Assembly: GCF_005860765.1 (NCBI RefSeq)
Contig: NZ_VCEI01000021.1
Location: 1,054,001 to 1,118,000 of the forward strand
DNA length: 64,000 bases
Reading direction: 5' to 3'
Source of the DNA: Dyadobacter sediminis
Lineage (GTDB): Bacteria; Bacteroidota; Bacteroidia; Cytophagales; Spirosomataceae
Each line of letters starts with the position of its first letter. Within the stretch, counting starts at the first letter, position 1. Both the position numbers and the translations under genes were made by a program. Of the stretch, positions 39,210-64,000 are shown one piece after another. The notes under the pieces were generated by a model, which worked only from the letters and a program-made list of their open reading frames with translations, was not told the DNA's origin and did not search any database.

Positions 39210-39794
39210 GTGAAGTTTTTAAAATGGTTTCAGGGCAGAAAGGATCCTTCGTTTTCAGAAGCGGAACAGCTTTCCTTGTATCGCCTTACCGGAGATATAC
39301 AGCTTTTAGGCGCTTTGTATCAGCCGTATATGGAAATGGTGTTCGCCGTTTGCTATAAATACCTGCGCGAAGAGGCCGAAAGCAAGGACGCTGTGATGCA
39401 GATTTTTGAAAAAATAATCACTGATCTGAAAACGCATGAAGTCGATCATTTCAGAAGCTGGCTCCATGCCGTTGCACGGAATTACTGCCTTATGCAGATC
39501 CGTGCAAAACGGGTTTTTGTAACAACCGAAGAACTGGATGAAAATCAGGCAGAAATTCCGGGTAACGCGTATGAAGCACACGAGAAAGCAGATGCGAAAT
39601 TTACGGTACTTGAGAGTTGCATGAACGCACTGGCAAAAGAACAAAGGACTGCGATTGAGAAGTTTTACATGCAGGAAAAATGTTACCGGGAAATCAGCGC
39701 GGAAACCGGTTTTGATCTGAACAAAGTGAAAAGCTGCATCCAGAACGGAAAGCGGAACCTTAAAATCTGCATGGAAAAAGATGAAAAAGCCTGA
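39210..39794 (+). CDS. ECF-type RNA polymerase sigma factor
   Basis: 194 residues, read from a GTG at 39210 because no ATG lies before the conserved region 2. Region 2 is recognised in YQPYMEMVFAVCYKYLREEA and DAVMQIFEKI, followed by FRSWLHAVARNYCLMQIRAK. Region 4 is in LAKEQRTAIEKFYMQEKCYR and GFDLNKVKSCIQNGKRNL. It should direct RNA polymerase to a stress or nutrient regulon. The 3' end overlaps the anti-sigma gene by 14 bases, which couples their production. Confidence 0.88.
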   Translation: MKFLKWFQGRKDPSFSEAEQLSLYRLTGDIQLLGALYQPYMEMVFAVCYKYLREEAESKDAVMQIFEKIITDLKTHEVDHFRSWLHAVARNYCLMQIRAKRVFVTTEELDENQAEIPGNAYEAHEKADAKFTVLESCMNALAKEQRTAIEKFYMQEKCYREISAETGFDLNKVKSCIQNGKRNLKICMEKDEKA

Positions 39795-50313: not shown

Positions 50314-51525
50314 ATGGATATTGTCATCACCGGGCAGCAGGCATGGGACGTGGAAATCGGCAGCAACTGCAAGAATATTGCTCTTGAATTCAGCAGGCAG
50401 CACAGAGTGCTGTACGTCAATTCACCGTTGGACCGGATCAGTCTGCTGAAAAAAAGTGCCGATCCCAAAATCATCAGGCGCCGCGAAGTCATCGACAGGA
50501 AACTGAACAGCATAGAAAAGATCAACAGGAACCTATGGGTACTGTATCCCGACCGGATGATCGAATCCATTAACTGGATACCTTCGCAATTTATTTTTAA
50601 CCGGCTCAATAAAAGGAATAACCGGATTTTTGCCTCGTCTATTGAACGTGCCGTAAAAAGTCTCGGGTTCAGCGATTTCATTCATTTCAATGACAATGAC
50701 ATGTTCCGGAGCTTTTACCTTAAGGATTTCCTGCAGCCGAAACTGTCCATTTATTATTCCCGCGATTTCATGCTGGCAGTGGATTACTGGAAAAAACACG
50801 GTACTTCACTGGAACCGCAGCTTATTGCAAAAAGTGACCTTTGCGTTGCCAATTCCACTTACCTGGCCGATTACTGCAGAAAGTATAACCGGCATTCGTA
50901 TTACGTGGGCCAGGGCTGCGACCTGCAGTTGTTCATGGAAGGAGTTGGCAGCGATGAACCCGCTGATATCAGCCGCATCGCCAGGCCAAGAATCGGCTAT
51001 GTAGGCGCGCTGCAGAGCATCCGGCTGGACATGGAACTGCTTCATTACATAGCAGTAACACGTCCGGACTGGAACCTTGTGCTGGTGGGGCCCGAGGATA
51101 ACGAGTTCCTTCAGAGCAGTCTGCATCAGCTGCCGAACGTGACGTTTACCGGTTCCAGAAACATAGATCAGCTGCCGGCCTACATCAATTCGTTTGACGT
51201 ATGCATCAATCCGCAATTGCTGAACGAAGTTACCATCGGGAATTATCCCAGAAAAATTGACGAATATCTGGCCATGGGAAAACCGACCGTAGCGACCAGA
51301 ACAGATGCCATGAGCGTTTTTGCAGAGTACGTTTATCTCGGTAAAACCAAAGAAGATTACGTTTCACTGATCGAAAAGGCACTGGATGAAAACTCGGATT
51401 CCAGGATGGAAGCACGCCGTGCTTTTGCCGCTTCGCATACCTGGGAAAACAGTGTAGGTGATATTTACAAGGCAATCAATGAACTGCCTGCAAATACCAC
51501 TCTGAATTTAACTCAGCATTTTTAG
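50314..51525 (+). CDS. Glycosyltransferase, GT4/GT1 type (GT-B fold)
   Basis: 403 residues from the ATG at 50314; a TTG two codons earlier is also open. The N-terminal half has DIVITGQQAWDVEIGSNCKN and RVLYVNSPLDR. The C-terminal half has the GT-B donor site: RIGYVGALQSIRLDMELLHY, LVLVGPEDNEF, VTFTGSRNIDQLPAYINSFD and NPQLLNEVTIGNYPRKIDEY with LAMGKPTVAT. It transfers an unknown sugar to the growing repeat unit. The last 18 bases overlap the 3' end of the hybrid kinase gene on the other strand. Confidence 0.9.
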   Translation: MDIVITGQQAWDVEIGSNCKNIALEFSRQHRVLYVNSPLDRISLLKKSADPKIIRRREVIDRKLNSIEKINRNLWVLYPDRMIESINWIPSQFIFNRLNKRNNRIFASSIERAVKSLGFSDFIHFNDNDMFRSFYLKDFLQPKLSIYYSRDFMLAVDYWKKHGTSLEPQLIAKSDLCVANSTYLADYCRKYNRHSYYVGQGCDLQLFMEGVGSDEPADISRIARPRIGYVGALQSIRLDMELLHYIAVTRPDWNLVLVGPEDNEFLQSSLHQLPNVTFTGSRNIDQLPAYINSFDVCINPQLLNEVTIGNYPRKIDEYLAMGKPTVATRTDAMSVFAEYVYLGKTKEDYVSLIEKALDENSDSRMEARRAFAASHTWENSVGDIYKAINELPANTTLNLTQHF

Positions 51526-54114
51526 CTGCTGAAGGCCCAGTTCCGACTCTGCCTTCAGTTCTTCCAGTTTCTGGTTCAGGGAAGATTCCCATTTTCCCTG
51601 TTTCAGGATGGCTTCCAGTTCTTTATACTGATTGGCTGTGGAAAGCATTCCGACCGAAAACAGCGAGGAGCGGAATTTGTGAACAGCCTGCCGCATCTGT
51701 TCCTGATTCATGGTGTGCGATGCTTCTTCTATGGCACTCAGCTGCGTTTTACTGTCTTTTTCATAAAGTGCAATAAGTTCTTCCCGCAACTCTTCATCGC
51801 CTCCTGTAATTTCATTCAGATATTCAAGATTGATAATGGAGTCAGTCATGGTATTTTGATTTTGATTAGTGGATTGGTTATGAGGCGTTACTATATTCTC
51901 TTTGTTTCCCAGATGTGCAATGGTATACAGCAGTTCACTCTCTTTGAACGGCTTGGATATATAACTGTTGGCACCTATGCTCAGGCATTCTTCTTTTTCT
52001 CCGATCATGGCATGCGCGGTCATGGTGATAATCGGGATGGTTTTTGAAATCGAACTTCTTATTTTCCGGATAGCGGTATAGCCATCCATCACCGGCATCT
52101 GAATATCCATCAGTACAATATCAAACGATTCGGCCTGAAGTTTCTCGATGGCTTCCTGGCCGTTGTTTACTATTGTCAAAGGTATGTCCAATCTTTCAAA
52201 AATGGCTTTAAGAAGTTTCTGGTTAAGCGTATTGTCCTCAGCAGCAAGTATTTTTAACGACGTGATGGAGCCATTGAAGTCAATTGTTCTTTCCAGATCT
52301 TCCTGTAAAACAGCGTCCGTCATGATCCTGACCGGAATATCTATCGTGAAAGCACTGCCTTTGCCGACTTCGCTTTTCAGGTTCAGTGTTCCGTTAAAGA
52401 GTTGTACCAGCGACTTTACAATACTCAGTCCGAGCCCTGTTCCGCCAAAAACCCGCGTTGTGCTTTCCGTGGCCTGCACAAAACGGTTGAATACTTCGTC
52501 AATTTTGTCCTGAGCAATTCCGATTCCGGTGTCGCGCACTTCAAAGCGGATGTTCTGAACGCCGCTGACCGGCTCGCCGATGGGTTCTACCAGCAATTTT
52601 ACACTGCCTTTTTCGGTGAACTTTACGGCATTTCCGCAGACATTCAGCAATATCTGTGTGAGGCGCAGTTTGTCGATTTCGATGATTTCCGGCAGTCCGG
52701 CGGATAAAACGGATTGGTAAACAATGCCTTTTTCAGCGGCCCGCTGGTTAATAATCACTGAAACGGAGTTGACAAGCTCGGTAATGGAAACCGCCATTTT
52801 TTCAAGATGCACCTGTCCGGCTTCTATTTTCGAAAAGTCCAGAATATCGTTGATCAGTTCGAGCAGGTTTTTACTGGCATACTGAATGTATCCCACGTAC
52901 TCGATGCTTTTCCTGTCCTTTACTTCTCCGATAAGCAGGTTTGTGAAACCGATAATGGCATTCAGCGGCGTACGGATTTCATGGCTTACATTGGACAGGA
53001 ATATGTCTTTTACCCTCACCGATTTTTCGGCCAGCGTCCGGGCTTTTTCCAGCGTAGCTTCGTAATTGGCTCTTTCGGTAATGTCGCGGAAAACCGTAAT
53101 GGCGCTTGTAATTTCACCTTCCAGTCCGATTACGGGCTGTACATTGGTTTCGAGATGATACAAACGGTTTTCCTTAACAAGGTCAATTTTATTGCCGATG
53201 AGTTTTTCACCGCGCAAAGCGCGTGATACCGGCAGTGTTTCACGGGTAAAAGCAATGTGATAACGTGTCGGATCAAGCAGTTTCACCGTATTCAGTTCTT
53301 CATTAAGCGCTTCCAGGTTGGTGGACCGGACACCCAGGATTTCACGGCCTGACTGGTTCAGCAGCACAATTTCATTTTCCTTGTTGATCACCAGTACACC
53401 GTCCGGAATGGCTTCCAGATACTGGTTTACAACTCTTTCTTTTTCATTTATTTCCTTTTGCATACGTCTGAGCTTTCGCTTGTCGCGGTTCAGGAGTACG
53501 ATTGAAAGAAGAGAAAGCAGAAATCCGGCCGCCCCGGTGACGAAGATAAAGAGCACCGAGTTTTTTTGCGTACTGGCCACAAGCCTTCTCCGTTCGTTCA
53601 GATTGCTGTTTGCTTCACTGTTGATTTCATTGATTTTGTCCGTCAGTAAATTGTTCAGACGGATTCCTTCACCTTCCTGCAGCAGATGAAAAGCAGCTTC
53701 TTCGCCCTGTGTACGGTACACGGTAATGACATTCTGCGTGTAGAAAACGATTTTGCCCGAAATTTTTAACAGTTCCTGAACACGCCGCGTCTGCGCTGCA
53801 TCCGATCTGACAAGGTTGAAAAGCGTGTCCGTAATACCGACCAGCTGGATTTTTTTATTGTAATTGTCCGAAAGAAGTTCACTGTTTTTGGTTATAAGGT
53901 AACCGCGCATGTTGGACTGGAAATCTTTGGTAACCAGCCCGAAATTGGCAATCTGGTTCAGTACGCCTACGGTCACGTTCAGCCTTGTGTTGTTCAGCGA
54001 AAGATCCCTTACGTTTTTATAGGTAAAATACTGCGATCCGAAAATCAGGACAAGCCCGAGGTAAATGCTGGCATAATACCATTTGAATGAATTGTTTCTT
54101 GTAGTACCGGGCAT
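51508..54114 (-). CDS. Hybrid histidine kinase: CHASE3-PAS-HisKA-HATPase-REC-HPt
   Basis: 868 residues. Two membrane helices (about 12-30 and 185-207) enclose a CHASE3 sensor region (TKDFQSNMRGYLITKNSELL). A PAS domain (about 232-345, with AIPDGVLVINKENEIVLLNQ) is followed by HisKA with H378 (SNVSHEIRTPLNAII), a HATPase domain, a receiver with D670 (VLMDIQMPVMDG) and an HPt domain with H812 (AVHKFRSS). The full His-Asp-His chain means phosphate can pass on to a separate receiver; D55 of the regulator at 41292 is a candidate. It lies within the exopolysaccharide cluster, which suggests control of the surface polymer. Its 3' end overlaps the glycosyltransferase gene at 50314-51525. Confidence 0.93.
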   Translation of the reverse strand: MPGTTRNNSFKWYYASIYLGLVLIFGSQYFTYKNVRDLSLNNTRLNVTVGVLNQIANFGLVTKDFQSNMRGYLITKNSELLSDNYNKKIQLVGITDTLFNLVRSDAAQTRRVQELLKISGKIVFYTQNVITVYRTQGEEAAFHLLQEGEGIRLNNLLTDKINEINSEANSNLNERRRLVASTQKNSVLFIFVTGAAGFLLSLLSIVLLNRDKRKLRRMQKEINEKERVVNQYLEAIPDGVLVINKENEIVLLNQSGREILGVRSTNLEALNEELNTVKLLDPTRYHIAFTRETLPVSRALRGEKLIGNKIDLVKENRLYHLETNVQPVIGLEGEITSAITVFRDITERANYEATLEKARTLAEKSVRVKDIFLSNVSHEIRTPLNAIIGFTNLLIGEVKDRKSIEYVGYIQYASKNLLELINDILDFSKIEAGQVHLEKMAVSITELVNSVSVIINQRAAEKGIVYQSVLSAGLPEIIEIDKLRLTQILLNVCGNAVKFTEKGSVKLLVEPIGEPVSGVQNIRFEVRDTGIGIAQDKIDEVFNRFVQATESTTRVFGGTGLGLSIVKSLVQLFNGTLNLKSEVGKGSAFTIDIPVRIMTDAVLQEDLERTIDFNGSITSLKILAAEDNTLNQKLLKAIFERLDIPLTIVNNGQEAIEKLQAESFDIVLMDIQMPVMDGYTAIRKIRSSISKTIPIITMTAHAMIGEKEECLSIGANSYISKPFKESELLYTIAHLGNKENIVTPHNQSTNQNQNTMTDSIINLEYLNEITGGDEELREELIALYEKDSKTQLSAIEEASHTMNQEQMRQAVHKFRSSLFSVGMLSTANQYKELEAILKQGKWESSLNQKLEELKAESELGLQQLKMLS

Positions 54115-58488: not shown

Positions 58489-59829
58489 ATGGCAATGCAA
58501 CTTTTACAGAAGTTCAGGAACAAACATTTTCTTTCGCTGGCCGGAAACGGCATCATGTCGGTACTGGGAATGCTTAACATGATTATCCTGTACCGTGCGC
58601 TTCCGGTTGCCAGTATCGGAATGTGGGTGTTTTTCCTGTCTATTCTGCTGCTCGTGGATACCTTTCGCTCGGGCTTTCTTACGACAGCCTTTATCAAGTT
58701 TTATGCAGGTGCCGCTACGTCCAGAAAAGCGGAAGTGGTTGGTTCGGCATGGTTTATAGGCGGTTCCATCACGCTGGTGCTGGTGATCCTGAATGTTCCT
58801 GCCTATCTGTTTTCTTCCTATTTCAAAAATCCGTCGCTGGTTTTGTTTGTAGAATGGTTCGGGATTATTTATGTAGCGTCGCTTCCTTCATTCATTGCTT
58901 CCTGCGTCGTACAGGCCGAGCAGCGTTTCGATCATTTGCTCTGCATCCGTTTTCTGAGCCAGGGCGTGTTCATACTGTTTGTGATTATCATGGCATTGAC
59001 CAAAACGGCCAATCTGCAGAATATCATTTATGCTTATCTGGGCGGTGCGGCCATGACGAGCCTTTTTACCATACTCATGGGCTGGTCGCGGATTGCCATG
59101 TTCAAAGACCGGACGTGGACAACGATCCGTGAGATTTTTCATTTTGGCAAATACAGTGTCGGGACCACGCTCAGCTCCAACCTCTTCGGAACTTCCAACA
59201 CCATGATCATCAACTTCATGCTCGGGCCTGCCGCGCTGGCTGTTTTTAATCTCGGCCAACGGCTCATGGAAATCATTGAAATTCCGCTCAGAAGTTTTGC
59301 CGCCACGGGAATGCCCGAGTTATCCGCAGCCTACAATGAAGGCAACAAGGCAAAGGTGATTGAAACCATGAAAAGATATACGGGCCTGATTACGGTGGCT
59401 CTGCTTCCGGCTTGCCTGGGTGCTGTGGCGCTTGCCGACGTTGCCATCAGCATCATCGGCGGAAGCAAGTATGTGCACAGTGAAGCCGCTAACATCATGC
59501 GGTTGTTTATGACCTTTGCACTGCTTTATCCGCTCGACCGGTTTTTTGCCCTTACGCTGGATGTCATCCATCAGCCCAAGATCAATTTTGTAAAAGTACT
59601 GTTAATGCTCGCGGGAAGCGTCTCGGCCTCCTTTGCCGGAATTTACCTGACAGGAAATGTATACGGCGTGGCCATTGCAGGAATTGTGCCGACGCTGATC
59701 GGCGTGGGAATCGGATACTGGGGATTGAACCGGTTTGAGCCTTTCAGCATCATGAGCGTATTCACAACGGGCTATTCGGAAGCGGTAAACCTCGTTAAAA
59801 CTTACTGGCTGAAACTTGCGAAAAACTGA
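58489..59829 (+). CDS. Lipopolysaccharide/exopolysaccharide flippase (Wzx-like, MOP superfamily)
   Basis: 446 residues with about 12 to 14 membrane helices. The start (NKHFLSLAGNGIMSVLGMLN) and the repeated bundle of the MOP fold (FGKYSVGTTLSSNLFGTSNT, then GPAALAVFNLGQRLMEIIEI) are typical of PF01943/PF13440 polysaccharide transporters. It should move lipid-linked repeat units across the inner membrane for the Wzy-like polymerase. It stands alone on the + strand between two minus-strand operons; a near-match to the -7 element, CATATTTG, lies at 58436-58443. Only nine bases separate its stop from the acyltransferase stop. Confidence 0.88.
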   Translation: MAMQLLQKFRNKHFLSLAGNGIMSVLGMLNMIILYRALPVASIGMWVFFLSILLLVDTFRSGFLTTAFIKFYAGAATSRKAEVVGSAWFIGGSITLVLVILNVPAYLFSSYFKNPSLVLFVEWFGIIYVASLPSFIASCVVQAEQRFDHLLCIRFLSQGVFILFVIIMALTKTANLQNIIYAYLGGAAMTSLFTILMGWSRIAMFKDRTWTTIREIFHFGKYSVGTTLSSNLFGTSNTMIINFMLGPAALAVFNLGQRLMEIIEIPLRSFAATGMPELSAAYNEGNKAKVIETMKRYTGLITVALLPACLGAVALADVAISIIGGSKYVHSEAANIMRLFMTFALLYPLDRFFALTLDVIHQPKINFVKVLLMLAGSVSASFAGIYLTGNVYGVAIAGIVPTLIGVGIGYWGLNRFEPFSIMSVFTTGYSEAVNLVKTYWLKLAKN

Positions 59830-59838
59830 TTGCAGGCG

Positions 59839-60951
59839 TTATGCTGCATCCGTTTGCTTTGCAGGAACTTTGGTCTTCTTGTATTGAAAACGCATTTCAA
59901 TATTCTTGTAAGTCCAGGAAGAAACCAGATAAATCAGCGCAAAATTCAGGATGAAAAGATAAGAATACGCAGTGGGTGGAAATTTGAGAATGCGGATGAA
60001 AAACACATTGAAAAGGCTGATCATCAAGGCATGCGTCATGTAAATAGAGTAGGAGTACTTTCCAAGGTTATGCAGTAAGCCGGCTCTTTTCAGCATGGCG
60101 GAAATAAAGCCTTTTTCAAATGAAAAAGTGTAAATGCAGACAAAGAACAACACTTCAAAAACAGCGCCGAGCGGCTTCATAATTTCTCCGTAACAGATAC
60201 AAACCGTAATCAGCACAAGCGTGGTCAGTTCCGCAGCAGAAAACAAGAACGAAGGCCAGGTACGTACATGATGATGCGTAGCACTGAACAGGTTGAAACA
60301 GATTGCGCCGGTAAAAAAGCCGAGTATGCCGCGCAGAAAACCGTAATCAAAACTGTAATTGATCTGTAAACTTCCTGAAACTGCAGACAATCCTGCCAGA
60401 CAAACGAGAATAATCAATGCATAATAGAAATTCCTGTGGCTGAACTGGCGCGTGCCATGAATGAAAACCAGCAGACTTCCGAAAACAAGATAAGCCATCA
60501 TTTCTGCACTAATCGACCAGCTCGGAATATTCCAGCTCACGTCGTGTACACCCGGAACCGGAGTGGAGTTAACGAGAAAAAAGGAAGTAAAAAAGGTCGT
60601 GATATTATTGGCCGGGTTAACAAGGTTGTTAACCTTGACATAAGGGTTCAGCAGATTTTTGGCTACTTCCATTCCTACAAACGCCAGAAGCATGAACAAA
60701 TGCAGCGGGTAAATCCTGTAAATGCGTTTGGTGATAAAAAGCCTGAACTGCTGCCAGTCGGAAAGGGATTGGTAGCTGTAAGCAATCACAAATCCGCTCA
60801 GCACAAAGAAGAAATCGACAAACATGTCGGAATTTTCCACAAAGCTGTTGTTCAGCACGGGAGTTTCTGCAAACGGGCCGAGGTGAAACATAAAAACCAG
60901 CGTTGCAAACAGGCCGCGAAAAATATCAAGTACTTCAAACCTATGCTTCAT
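59839..60951 (-). CDS. OafA-like acyltransferase (acyltransferase 3 family)
   Basis: 370 residues with about ten membrane helices. The family motifs FRGLFATLVFMFHLGPFA (with the conserved His) and DFFFVLSGFVIAYSYQSL are in place. It should move an acyl group, usually acetyl, to a sugar in the membrane or periplasm. It overlaps the 3' end of the HATPase gene upstream by 11 bases and so belongs to the partner-switching operon. It is the only enzyme in that operon and is thus a candidate for its output. Confidence 0.88.
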   Translation of the reverse strand: MKHRFEVLDIFRGLFATLVFMFHLGPFAETPVLNNSFVENSDMFVDFFFVLSGFVIAYSYQSLSDWQQFRLFITKRIYRIYPLHLFMLLAFVGMEVAKNLLNPYVKVNNLVNPANNITTFFTSFFLVNSTPVPGVHDVSWNIPSWSISAEMMAYLVFGSLLVFIHGTRQFSHRNFYYALIILVCLAGLSAVSGSLQINYSFDYGFLRGILGFFTGAICFNLFSATHHHVRTWPSFLFSAAELTTLVLITVCICYGEIMKPLGAVFEVLFFVCIYTFSFEKGFISAMLKRAGLLHNLGKYSYSIYMTHALMISLFNVFFIRILKFPPTAYSYLFILNFALIYLVSSWTYKNIEMRFQYKKTKVPAKQTDAA

Positions 60952-61525
60952 GTTCGTTGCTATTCAGATAAATGGTGCTTCTGAACCGGTTGATTTTTAG
61001 TATGGGATCGTATGTATAGGTAAATTCATCAGATGCTTTGGTCATAATGAGCAGCCCGAAGTGCTCGCTTGTATCAATAAGCAGTCCGGGCATTTCCACG
61101 TCATCCAGCTGTTCAACAAAAAAAGCTGCGCAGTCAGGTTCTGTGCTCCGTACCCGGAGTGAATCCGTTCCGTTGTGGTAAATCTGGAATTCGAGGGGTT
61201 CGGCCAAGGGAGGCAGCGGCCAGGTTATAACTTGGCCGCTGTTGTTTTCAAACAGCATCAGCGGTTTTCCCGTATCTTCCTTTTCCAGGACAAGCTGTTC
61301 GGTATCATGCTCGAAAGTCAGCATGCATTCGTTCATGCCCGAATGCTTTACTGCGTTGGTGAGTAGTTCGGTTATAATCCATTTCAGCTTTGCAAGGGTT
61401 AACATACCTACAGGCTTGACGTGTGTTTCTTTCCTGATATGATCAAGGCACAGGTTTACAATTCCGGGAATTTCTTCCCGGTCACATTTAAAAGCAATAT
61501 TAATCTTACCTGATTCCTCTTTCAT
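60941..61525 (-). CDS. HATPase-domain anti-sigma-factor-type switch protein
   Basis: 194 residues. The N-box is at residues 53-61 (ELLTNAVKHSG) and the G1-type element EDTGKP at 83-88 (D84, G86), as in RsbW/SpoIIAB kinases, though this protein is longer by about 40 residues at the C-terminus. It probably phosphorylates the STAS protein encoded just upstream, or binds another target. No sigma factor gene is near. It starts three bases after the STAS stop and shares 11 bases with the acyltransferase gene. Confidence 0.82.
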   Translation of the reverse strand: MKEESGKINIAFKCDREEIPGIVNLCLDHIRKETHVKPVGMLTLAKLKWIITELLTNAVKHSGMNECMLTFEHDTEQLVLEKEDTGKPLMLFENNSGQVITWPLPPLAEPLEFQIYHNGTDSLRVRSTEPDCAAFFVEQLDDVEMPGLLIDTSEHFGLLIMTKASDEFTYTYDPILKINRFRSTIYLNSNEHEA

Positions 61526-61528
61526 AAT

Positions 61529-61867
61529 CTAGTTTATTGTTTCCATAGCCTGCTTGTAGTCTTTGAAAATCTTGAAGACTTTATCCATTCTGATCAGGGT
61601 CAGCAGATTTTTGACATCCGGTTTCAGGGCAACAAGGTAGATATCCACTTTCCGCGGCATGGCATATTTCAGAGCCACAACGAGGCTTCCCAGAAAGGAA
61701 CTGTCGATATAATTCACATTCTCGAAACTCAGGATGATCAGCTTCGTTCCTCCGGCTATGAGTGTGATCATTTCTTCTTTGAACATGTCTGCATTTGACA
61801 AACTGGCTTCTTCCGGCAAAATCGTTGCCTGTACTACATCTGAAAGGTCATTAACTTGAAGTACCAT
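61529..61867 (-). CDS. STAS-domain anti-sigma-factor antagonist
   Basis: 112 residues, the normal size of SpoIIAA/RsbV. The phosphorylation loop VNYIDSSFLGSLVVAL has D55 and the acceptor S56 (DSS), matching the DSxGL pattern with F in place of G. The protein should be released from its HATPase partner when the Ser is dephosphorylated by the phosphatase encoded upstream. It is eight bases from the phosphatase stop and three from the HATPase start. Confidence 0.9.
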   Translation of the reverse strand: MVLQVNDLSDVVQATILPEEASLSNADMFKEEMITLIAGGTKLIILSFENVNYIDSSFLGSLVVALKYAMPRKVDIYLVALKPDVKNLLTLIRMDKVFKIFKDYKQAMETIN

Positions 61868-61875
61868 AGGGTATA

Positions 61876-63033
61876 TTATTGTTTTTCGATAAAAATAATG
61901 CTTGCGTCGTCCATCTGGTTACCGTCGTTGATCGTCCCCAGAACCTCTTTTTTAATCAGTTCAAAACTGTCAGTCCTGCCGAGATAAGGGCTGATCTTGT
62001 CTACAAAAAAAGGATAATCGCTTTTTTTGGAACCATCCGAAGGGATATCGATCATGCCGTCTGTAAAAAGCACAATCTGGTCTCCGGATTTCATTTTTAT
62101 GACCTGTTTGTCGTACATGCCTTCTTCCATCAGTCCGAGCAGCAGGCCGGAAGACATAATGGTTGAAGTTCTGTCGAGCGAAGGTTCAAAATTTACGAGC
62201 GGAAGGTCACCTGCTCCGGAGTAATGCACCTCTCCGGTATGGCTGTCGAGCAGAAGCAGCGACAGGCTGGATAGGATACTTTCCAGGCTGTCATCCAGAT
62301 AAATCAGCTTATTGATCTTCTGCATGATGGTATCAATGGCATAATCGTTATCCAGCACGCAGAAGCGGATAGCTGCCCGGATGTAGCTTAAAAACCCGAA
62401 TGTAAAAAACCATGCTTTCCATTTTTTTCCCATGATATCGCCCAGAAAAGCAAAGCAGAAACGTTCATCGACCTGCACGAAATCAATGAAATCGCCGCCC
62501 GGATATCCCCGAAACCCTTTGTGCCAGAAATGGACACGGAAACCTGCAACTTTGGGGTCCTGTACCGGCATGGATTTGACATTCAGCGTTTCAGCGGCAA
62601 TTTTAAGTTCGTGTACAGATCTTACGTGTTCGTTCTGAAGCGATGTAATGATGTTGTTGAGCTTAGAAATAATAACCGCCATCGGCGTTTCCTTGTTGAT
62701 AAAATCCAGCGCATACATGTTCAGCCCTTCCAGCATCAGCGAATCGTCGGTAATGGAAGTCAGGAATACAAACGGGATATCTTTCAGGTTCGGATTGTGC
62801 AGAACGGCCTGCCGGAAATCAAATCCGTTCATTTCAGGCATGTCATAATCGGAAAGAATCAGATCCGGCATTTCATCCGCAAGCAATTCCAGCGCTTCCG
62901 TTGCAGACTCGCAGAGCACGCAGTTGTAGCCTGCTTTCAGCAAGGATGCTTCTATAACCTTACGGAACAGCAGATTGTCTTCTACCAGCAGGATCTTTTT
63001 TACGGCCGCAGGAGGATCCGGGAAACTGATCAT
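61876..63033 (-). CDS. Receiver-SpoIIE-type PP2C phosphatase (RsbU-like)
   Basis: 385 residues. Residues 10-130 are a receiver with D19 and phosphoacceptor D62 (LILSDYDMPEMNG). Residues 160-385 are a PP2C phosphatase of the SpoIIE/RsbU type with metal-binding D181 (GGDFIDF), D199 (LGDIMGKKWKAW) and D325 (FTDGMID). It should dephosphorylate the STAS protein once its receiver is phosphorylated. The usual DVxGHG is changed to DIMGKKW, as in several Bacteroidota members, so activity needs testing. The start overlaps the stop of the membrane protein gene in ATGA. Confidence 0.9.
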   Translation of the reverse strand: MISFPDPPAAVKKILLVEDNLLFRKVIEASLLKAGYNCVLCESATEALELLADEMPDLILSDYDMPEMNGFDFRQAVLHNPNLKDIPFVFLTSITDDSLMLEGLNMYALDFINKETPMAVIISKLNNIITSLQNEHVRSVHELKIAAETLNVKSMPVQDPKVAGFRVHFWHKGFRGYPGGDFIDFVQVDERFCFAFLGDIMGKKWKAWFFTFGFLSYIRAAIRFCVLDNDYAIDTIMQKINKLIYLDDSLESILSSLSLLLLDSHTGEVHYSGAGDLPLVNFEPSLDRTSTIMSSGLLLGLMEEGMYDKQVIKMKSGDQIVLFTDGMIDIPSDGSKKSDYPFFVDKISPYLGRTDSFELIKKEVLGTINDGNQMDDASIIFIEKQ

Positions 63034-63581
63034 TTTTTGTTGAAGTTTAAAACAAACAATAGGACGCCGCCAAATATGATGAGCAACGAAACCAAGTCCA
63101 TGATCGTAACGCCGTCATTCGGAGTAAAGTAAAAAACAGTAAATATTTCAAAACTGGGCGGTGCAGGCATGATGATCATGGCAAATCCGAATACGATCAG
63201 CAATATGGCCAGAATAAACATAATGCCTTTTTGAAATGCATTTTTTTTAAGATAATTGCTACTGATCTTGCTGTCAATTTTGGTTTCGGAAAGCAGTTTT
63301 TCCAGACCTTCCAGCAATTCTTCCCTCGAAAGGTTGTTGTCCTGATCCAGCTGCTCAAACGATGCGATCTGAGCTTCTGCTGTTCCCGATTTTGCGAAAG
63401 CTTCTGCGATCTGCTGCTGATAAAGTCTCGCACTTTCACTGTCTATCACGGAGCGCTCGATAATTTCGATCAGCTCGCTTAATTTCTGTTCAAGCAAAGT
63501 ATTACCGGTTTCCGACTGCGGCAAACGGGCACTTTGTACTTCAGAATCTTTCCGGATATTAAGCAAGCGATTAATTTTCAC
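63030..63581 (-). CDS. Predicted membrane protein at the head of the partner-switching operon
   Basis: 183 residues, no family recognised. The N-terminal 110 residues are helical and probably coiled coil (LEQKLSELIEIIERSVIDSE, LDQDNNLSREELLEGLEKLL). Two membrane helices follow, about residues 116-138 (GIMFILAILLIVFGFAMIIM) and 158-178 (IMDLVSLLIIFGGVLLFVLN), with a short loop between. The gene overlaps the phosphatase gene by four bases. It may give the membrane input to the phosphatase; that is inference from order. Confidence 0.78.
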   Translation of the reverse strand: MKINRLLNIRKDSEVQSARLPQSETGNTLLEQKLSELIEIIERSVIDSESARLYQQQIAEAFAKSGTAEAQIASFEQLDQDNNLSREELLEGLEKLLSETKIDSKISSNYLKKNAFQKGIMFILAILLIVFGFAMIIMPAPPSFEIFTVFYFTPNDGVTIMDLVSLLIIFGGVLLFVLNFNKK

Positions 63582-63723: not shown

Positions 63724-63731
63724 TATATTTG
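63724..63731 (+). promoter_or_regulatory. TAnnTTTG -7 element before the last glycosyltransferase gene
   Basis: TATATTTG matches the -7 consensus. A TTTG at 63696-63699 is 24 bases upstream, slightly beyond the usual spacing. Transcription would start near 63738, some 27 bases before the ATG at 63765. Confidence 0.5.
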
Positions 63732-63764: not shown

Positions 63765-64000
63765 ATGAAAAGGGTTTCCATTGTTACGGTAAATTTTAAC
63801 CAGCCGTTGGTTACGGAAGATTTGCTGAGATCACTTGCGGAAGTAAATGCCTATCCCGATCTGGAAATAATCGTTGTTGACAATGGGAGCAAGGTCAATG
63901 TGGTGCCGGAATGGCAGTTGCGGTACAAAGACATTCGATTCATCCGTTCCGAAATCAACACCGGATTTGCCGGAGGGAACAACATCGGCATTCAGCATGC
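63765..64000 (+). CDS. Glycosyltransferase GT2 family, N-terminal part
   Basis: Only the first 78 residues lie in the window. The start MKRVSIVTVNFNQPLVTEDL, the strand LEIIVVDNGSKVNV and the GFAGGNNIGIQHA nucleotide-site loop are the first half of a GT2 domain, similar to rhamnosyltransferase-like enzymes. An ATG two codons earlier (63759) is also possible. It continues the exopolysaccharide cluster to the right. Confidence 0.85.
   Translation, partial: MKRVSIVTVNFNQPLVTEDLLRSLAEVNAYPDLEIIVVDNGSKVNVVPEWQLRYKDIRFIRSEINTGFAGGNNIGIQH

Follow-up and report, generated by a model that had tools for sequence, protein, structure and literature searches.

A partner-switching module beside a glycosyltransferase pair in Dyadobacter sediminis and other Bacteroidota: a candidate sigma-free control of glycan synthesis

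Here, we describe a four-gene partner-switching module in a 64,000-nucleotide stretch of the Dyadobacter sediminis genome (NCBI RefSeq assembly GCF_005860765.1, contig NZ_VCEI01000021.1, positions 1,054,001 to 1,118,000 of the forward strand; this whole stretch is called the window, and its numbering is used unless a locus is named). The module encodes a membrane protein, a receiver-SpoIIE phosphatase, a STAS protein and a GHKL (HATPase) kinase, and its fixed company is a pair of glycosyltransferase genes, GT317 and GT391. From sequence comparison, we propose, with what we judge an even chance of being right, that the module is dedicated to glycan synthesis, is probably sigma-free, and acts on the glycosyltransferases through its membrane protein. 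Loci (L) and genomes (G) carry our own handles where they must be told apart.

Results

All four genes lie on the minus strand and are tightly packed. The membrane-protein gene (183 amino acids (aa), 63030-63581, GTG start) overlaps the phosphatase gene (385 aa, 61876-63033) by 4 bp, 8 bp separate the latter from the STAS gene (112 aa, 61529-61867), and a further 3 bp lead to the kinase gene (194 aa, 60941-61525). A fifth minus-strand gene, for an OafA-like acyltransferase (59839-60951; Pfam Acyl_transf_3, 4.2e-20), overlaps the kinase gene by 11 bp; this arrangement of five packed genes with the acyltransferase last, given in a preliminary description of the DNA made from its letters alone, is confirmed by open reading frames (ORFs) and Pfam matches. 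Divergent from the module on the plus strand, GT317 (a GT2 glycosyltransferase) starts at 63729 and is cut by the window edge at 64000. A stretch of the same genome reaching past the window (L089) holds GT317, GT391 (a second GT2; L089:7686-8861), a gene for an Hpt protein and then an Mla-type operon (the last read by eye). The nearest named models of the two glycosyltransferases are a rhamnosyltransferase (GT317) and PgaC/IcaA (GT391), both far below cut-offs.

Two sets of loci were compared with the window. The first came from a phosphatase search of a genome collection, from which the best 80 of 515 confirmed relatives were taken. The intact four-gene locus is present in 38 of these 80 (30 Dyadobacter, 5 Mucilaginibacter, 1 Taibaiella, 1 Filimonas and 1 unclassified Bacteroidetes); adding L160 (genome G379) gives a 39-locus set, which leans to Dyadobacter (30/38). 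The closest match to the D. sediminis genome (G000, 6.2 Mb) within the same best 80 of 515 relatives is Dyadobacter flavalbus (L009), with a phosphatase 99% identical. The second survey selected loci by a profile of the membrane protein (A1), and surroundings were read for all 74 loci in the family of G363, probably Sphingobacteriaceae. Results are reported apart and not added, since L041 and L047 duplicate the records L215 and L216, and L160 is in both sets. The ORF picker overlooked STAS or HATPase genes in some loci where another pass detected them. Since the order membrane protein, phosphatase, STAS, HATPase is intact in 38 fetched loci, it is not due to chance.

The protein families and catalytic residues are those of a partner switch. 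The phosphatase matches Pfam Response_reg (1e-18) and SpoIIE (PF07228, 2.3e-20), and the STAS protein matches PF01740 (1e-12); RssB- and RssC-type NCBIfam matches of these two proteins fall far below cut-off. The kinase scores below both of its Pfam cut-offs (20.4 and 19.0 bits vs 26.4 and 27.4), and its assignment comes from its AlphaFold model (predicted local distance difference test (pLDDT) 85.5), for which the best PDB matches are RsbW (6m37, E 1.6e-5) and SpoIIAB (1tid, E 2.1e-5); it has an enlarged stretch between its D-x-G and H-x-G motifs. Among 100 distinct sequences, the window's own included, receiver D62 and K114 and phosphatase D181, D199 and D325 are invariant (100/100), with phosphatase D376 kept in 99/100. 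The STAS protein has the pair D55-S56 in 100/100, which we take to be the place of the phosphorylated serine in SpoIIAA, and the kinase keeps E53, N57 and G157 in 100/100, D84 in 93/100 and G86 in 94/100. Also conserved in the phosphatase is the motif GDxMGKKWxAW, at a place where a shorter glycine motif is usual in SpoIIE proteins. With a SpoIIE/PP2C phosphatase, a STAS protein with a phosphorylatable serine, and a GHKL kinase of the RsbW fold all found, the module is, to judge from these residues, almost certainly a working partner switch. Among Dyadobacter other than L009, the HATPase diverges much faster than its neighbours (35-57% identity vs 72-80% for the phosphatase).

GT317 and GT391 stand divergently beside the membrane-protein gene in 39/39 loci, with one gene between in L035. 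The second survey found a complete module in 64/74 loci and GT317 divergently upstream in 72/74 (in L229, a 73rd, the pair is present but in the same direction; the contig of L278 is too short to show GT391), and the pair adjoins 63 of the 64 complete modules, the exception being L286. Gene labels in this survey rest on similarity to window genes and miss other sugar genes, such as a GT8 gene in L261. No further polysaccharide gene of the types sought lies within ~8 kb of 21 of the 64 modules (L286 included), and because of these modules the pair, rather than a full polysaccharide cluster, is the fixed company. The preliminary description had placed the module inside an exopolysaccharide cluster, which holds in Dyadobacter and fails for those 21 modules; a module with no polysaccharide gene at all, which it had named as telling against its view, was found once (L286) in 64.

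Polysaccharide genes recur in two distant lineages. G302 has the phosphatase, a GT391 relative, STAS, a sugar transferase, an outer-membrane factor and a Wzc-like protein in succession, and its membrane protein follows later in the same polysaccharide run, far from the phosphatase and after glycosyltransferases. Four Balneolia-type loci (L163, L164, L165 and L051) hold polysaccharide genes, membrane protein, STAS and phosphatase within a few kb. The polysaccharide genes of G112 extend to a GT391 relative 22 kb away, and L052 groups membrane protein, STAS and phosphatase on a short contig from which polysaccharide genes are absent. With the pair at 39/39 and 63/64 loci and polysaccharide genes in these two lineages, the earlier suggestion that a switch lacking its own sigma factor controls polysaccharide production is supported, and we consider control of glycan synthesis by the switch very likely. 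The phosphatase-STAS pair as such is not tied to glycans. It also occurs, without the membrane protein or this kinase, in L045, L046, L048, L049, L053, L183 and L184, in another arrangement with a histidine kinase, an NtrC-like regulator, STAS and a receiver-SpoIIE protein with the GKKWxAW motif. In those of these loci that were read gene by gene, STAS and phosphatase come after NtrC-like regulators, and the stretches covered show no polysaccharide gene close by.

Several loci have lost parts of the module. In eight, the membrane protein adjoins GT317 and no switch lies behind it: L161, L282 and six of genus g30 (L277, L278, L279, L281, L283 and L284), with L278 (contig end) and L279 (3.5 kb left after the gene) as the weaker cases. 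One further g30 genome (L223) has the complete module, and a whole-genome phosphatase search of G363 (L161) gave receiver-type matches only. L229 retains membrane protein and STAS beside the pair, and phosphatase and kinase are absent there; a kinase without STAS was not seen in the stretches read. The constant group is thus membrane protein, GT317 and GT391, with the switch added onto it. STAS is kept without the kinase in L229 and, in the stretches read, in the distant loci. This agrees more readily with STAS being the output, as described for SypA and HmpV (PMC8256260, PMC4517449, PMC6495340), than with an anti-sigma role of the kinase.

The membrane protein looks like the most informative part of the module, and the preliminary description had listed it without a role. 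Besides a helical N-terminal part, it has a hairpin of two helices carrying the conserved motif GFAMIIMPAPPxFExFTxFYFxxxDGVTxMDL. It has no NCBIfam match, its Pfam matches are below cut-off and chance-like, and a PDB sequence search with its profile returned nothing below E 0.06; no fold search was made with it, because its model is too weak (pLDDT 62.4, predicted template modelling score (pTM) 0.32). By the A1 profile, it occurs in 9/395 genomes drawn from across the phylum (G176 and G393 being marginal matches), in 31/200 genomes of the window's family, all of these in the window's genus (31/34), and in 74/251 genomes of G363's family. For a comparison of alignment columns, 111 membrane proteins were reduced to 108 by merging identical sequences, giving 98 with and 8 without a switch; L285, whose contig ends inside the gene, was dropped, and L286 and L229 were treated separately. 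Of the conserved cells of the eight switchless proteins, 156/176 are kept in the hairpin and 42/64 in the cytoplasmic part, with R86 present in 1/8. L286 (genome G827), the sole complete module away from the pair, has a membrane protein that keeps 3/22 conserved hairpin columns. The contrast in the switchless proteins hints that the cytoplasmic part may face the switch and the hairpin the glycosyltransferases, and it goes no further than a hint because the cytoplasmic part evolves faster anyway.

In the mechanism that we propose, the receiver would be phosphorylated by a histidine kinase, perhaps with an Hpt protein as intermediate, and the SpoIIE domain would then strip from STAS S56 the phosphate placed by the GHKL kinase. 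Unphosphorylated STAS would be the likely output, and either STAS or the kinase engaged by it would act on the membrane protein at its cytoplasmic part. Through the hairpin, GT391 and GT317 would then be switched, on or off (the direction cannot be told from sequence), so that polymer output would be set post-translationally and no sigma factor freed. The genes, their order, the intact catalytic residues, the steady presence of the glycosyltransferase pair and the failure to find a sigma-B/F-type factor in the genome are observations; the phosphorylation events, the identity of the output protein, its contact with the glycosyltransferases, and whether they are turned on or off are inferred. 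An output that runs through the membrane protein to the glycosyltransferases seems to us a little short of evenly probable, and the wider claim, that a new two-helix membrane-protein family is a switch output directly gating a glycosyltransferase pair, sigma-free and in several Bacteroidota lineages, is put forward more tentatively still.

Several points weigh against the proposed mechanism. The second survey selected by this protein, and modules without it were not sought; its model (pLDDT 62) is too weak to read; and the contrast between hairpin and cytoplasmic part may reflect the faster evolution of the latter alone. A switch elsewhere in the genome was checked for G363 alone of the eight switchless cases. 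The pair does not need the switch: G503, G533 and G575, all three Dyadobacter, have the pair but no module, as do other genera. G827 has its pair on a different contig from its complete switch, within a polysaccharide cluster where the stretch read shows no membrane protein. Finally, no kinase matching its profile (A2) was found near the distant loci in the stretches read, so either the switch is incomplete there or another kinase serves.

The best surviving alternative makes the membrane protein a sensor of envelope or polymer that sets the phosphatase, the output being something else. Its gene is first in the operon and overlaps the phosphatase gene, and the conserved interhelix loop could, on the predicted topology, face the periplasm. 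However, the membrane protein stays by the glycosyltransferases in the eight switchless loci, the receiver of the phosphatase already provides it with an input, and in G302 the two proteins are encoded far apart; we regard a sensor role as unlikely.

Slightly less probable again is a classical switch, in which the HATPase would be an anti-sigma factor for RpoD or for an extracytoplasmic function (ECF) factor encoded elsewhere and the polysaccharide genes would be its regulon. The kinase does have the RsbW/SpoIIAB fold, and the 37 Sigma70_r2 matches of the genome (open frames of 86-287 aa) include an ECF-type gene in the window (39210-39794, ~21 kb from the module). The genome has one SpoIIE match and three STAS matches. 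SpoIIAB-type anti-sigma factors target sigma-B/F-class factors, which carry region 3. The single Sigma70_r3 match genome-wide is probably RpoD, and no sigma-B/F-class factor was found by this search (RpoN was not searched for). With one SpoIIE protein and one region-3 sigma factor, therefore, no sigma-B/F-type target is evident, and for lack of such a factor we do not file the module as a sigma-controlling Rsb system; ECF factors, RpoN and RpoD are possible targets. In Chlamydia, the primary sigma factor is the target of an Rsb network, according to a study cited in PMC8256260, and Pseudomonas HsbR-HsbA acts on RpoS (PMC6482189); these are precedents for such targets. Against a classical switch stand the single region-3 sigma factor, the constant company of a glycosyltransferase pair rather than a sigma gene, and the STAS gene kept in L229 though the kinase is gone. 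The operon itself is without a sigma factor, as first described, and the switch probably frees none. As a side observation, the ECF-type gene overlaps another, of 363 aa, that matches TonB_C weakly.

In a third alternative, the kinase or STAS would act directly on the acyltransferase and so set polymer acylation; the preliminary description had suggested that the switch bears on acylation or assembly of the polymer. An acyltransferase gene lies 3' of the kinase in 25/39 loci (23/30 Dyadobacter, Filimonas and G379, the last two showing the association outside Dyadobacter), the spacing ranging in 24/25 between a 17-bp overlap and a 91-bp gap, the 25th (L013) being an over-extended ORF; the 11-bp overlap is not conserved, being limited to part of the lineages and variable in length. 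None was found there in 14/39 loci, 7/30 Dyadobacter among them, by a profile that misses distant members (L040, which ends 41 bp after the kinase, cannot tell). In the second survey it is the direct codirectional neighbour of 7/64 modules, G379 again included; L262, among the other 57, also ends directly 3' of the kinase, and none of the unlabelled downstream genes is acyltransferase-like by its first 60 residues (two by Pfam). The association recurs after STAS in L229 and directly 3' of the membrane protein in switchless L279, where an Acyl_transf_3 gene (L279:8630-9721) missed by our in-house profile is detected by Pfam. Because the gene follows the kinase in 25/39 loci only and occurs without the module in G575 and G403, presence and absence both ways rule it out as an obligate partner, though it recurs as a neighbour. 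Coming and going like other polymer-cluster genes such as the flippase, it is not supported as the switch target, and we think regulated acylation very improbable.

Other neighbours are as follows. The flippase of the surrounding polysaccharide cluster (58489-59829, plus strand) is context and was rejected as a constant partner, a close copy (at least 74% identity) being present in 17/34 Dyadobacter genomes and the best match in the rest reaching 22-26%. A hybrid histidine kinase (CHASE3-PAS-HisKA-HATPase-receiver; 51508-54114, minus strand) is a putative input, and it is not supported as module-specific, having been seen in 10/38 loci in the stretches read. Similarly, the Hpt gene between GT391 and the Mla-type operon (L089:9021-9389, equivalent to window 66021-66389; PF01627, 9.2e-7) is not supported as a module-specific input, since it is also kept in the three module-less Dyadobacter genomes G503, G533 and G575. 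In module-less G575, a protein of ~275 aa (L177:9676-10503; no Pfam match for the L177 sequence) adjoins GT317, and a protein like it, as judged by eye, is encoded between GT317 and the module in L035 (8401-9231). A GT8-type glycosyltransferase gene lies 3' of the kinase in L261 (by Pfam) and in L263, L267, L272, L275 and L280 (by eye, from the first residues). In five g30 loci (L277, L278, L281, L283 and L284) a very large protein is encoded after the membrane-protein gene; the one in L283 carries cadherin-like and CshA repeats as well as a type IX secretion signal, and a PorP/SprF gene comes after it.

Discussion

The module shares the three folds and kept catalytic residues of RsbU/RsbV/RsbW and SpoIIE/SpoIIAA/SpoIIAB of Bacillus, and differs from them in that no sigma-B/F-class factor was found, a fourth (membrane-protein) gene is present and the kinase is longer. 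HptB-HsbR-HsbA of Pseudomonas aeruginosa likewise has a response regulator and a STAS protein controlling sessile life; there, the Hpt protein HptB stands upstream of HsbR-HsbA, and HsbR is kinase and phosphatase in one protein. It differs in acting on RpoS and FlgM (PMC6482189). SiaABC, also of P. aeruginosa, is a biofilm partner switch with the diguanylate cyclase SiaD and not a sigma factor; SiaC is phosphorylated on threonine, and the abstract of its report mentions no glycosyltransferase pair (PMC7647112). HmpU/HmpV/HmpW of Nostoc punctiforme is a partner switch tied to motility and polysaccharide, with the STAS protein HmpV described as an output on an undefined effector (PMC8256260, PMC6495340), and is cyanobacterial.

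SypE/SypA of Vibrio fischeri also has kinase and phosphatase activities that are under receiver control and act on a STAS protein of a polysaccharide locus, and the unphosphorylated STAS protein is described as active on an unknown target (PMC8256260, PMC4517449). SypE combines both activities in one multi-domain response regulator (PMC4517449, PMC3610818), whereas the Dyadobacter module has separate kinase and phosphatase genes, an added membrane protein and a fixed glycosyltransferase pair. Nothing relevant to such a module in Bacteroidota was found in the literature covered, which leaves out most subscription journals and all preprints.

The loci compared suggest a candidate function, the first, for a membrane-protein family that neither Pfam nor NCBIfam names. 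If the proposal is true, it would offer a candidate for the target of SypA-like STAS outputs. Comparative genomics names a candidate chain, from STAS to a membrane hairpin to two glycosyltransferases, whose parts are separated by natural losses, and this chain makes the question of the target testable in soil bacteria such as Dyadobacter.

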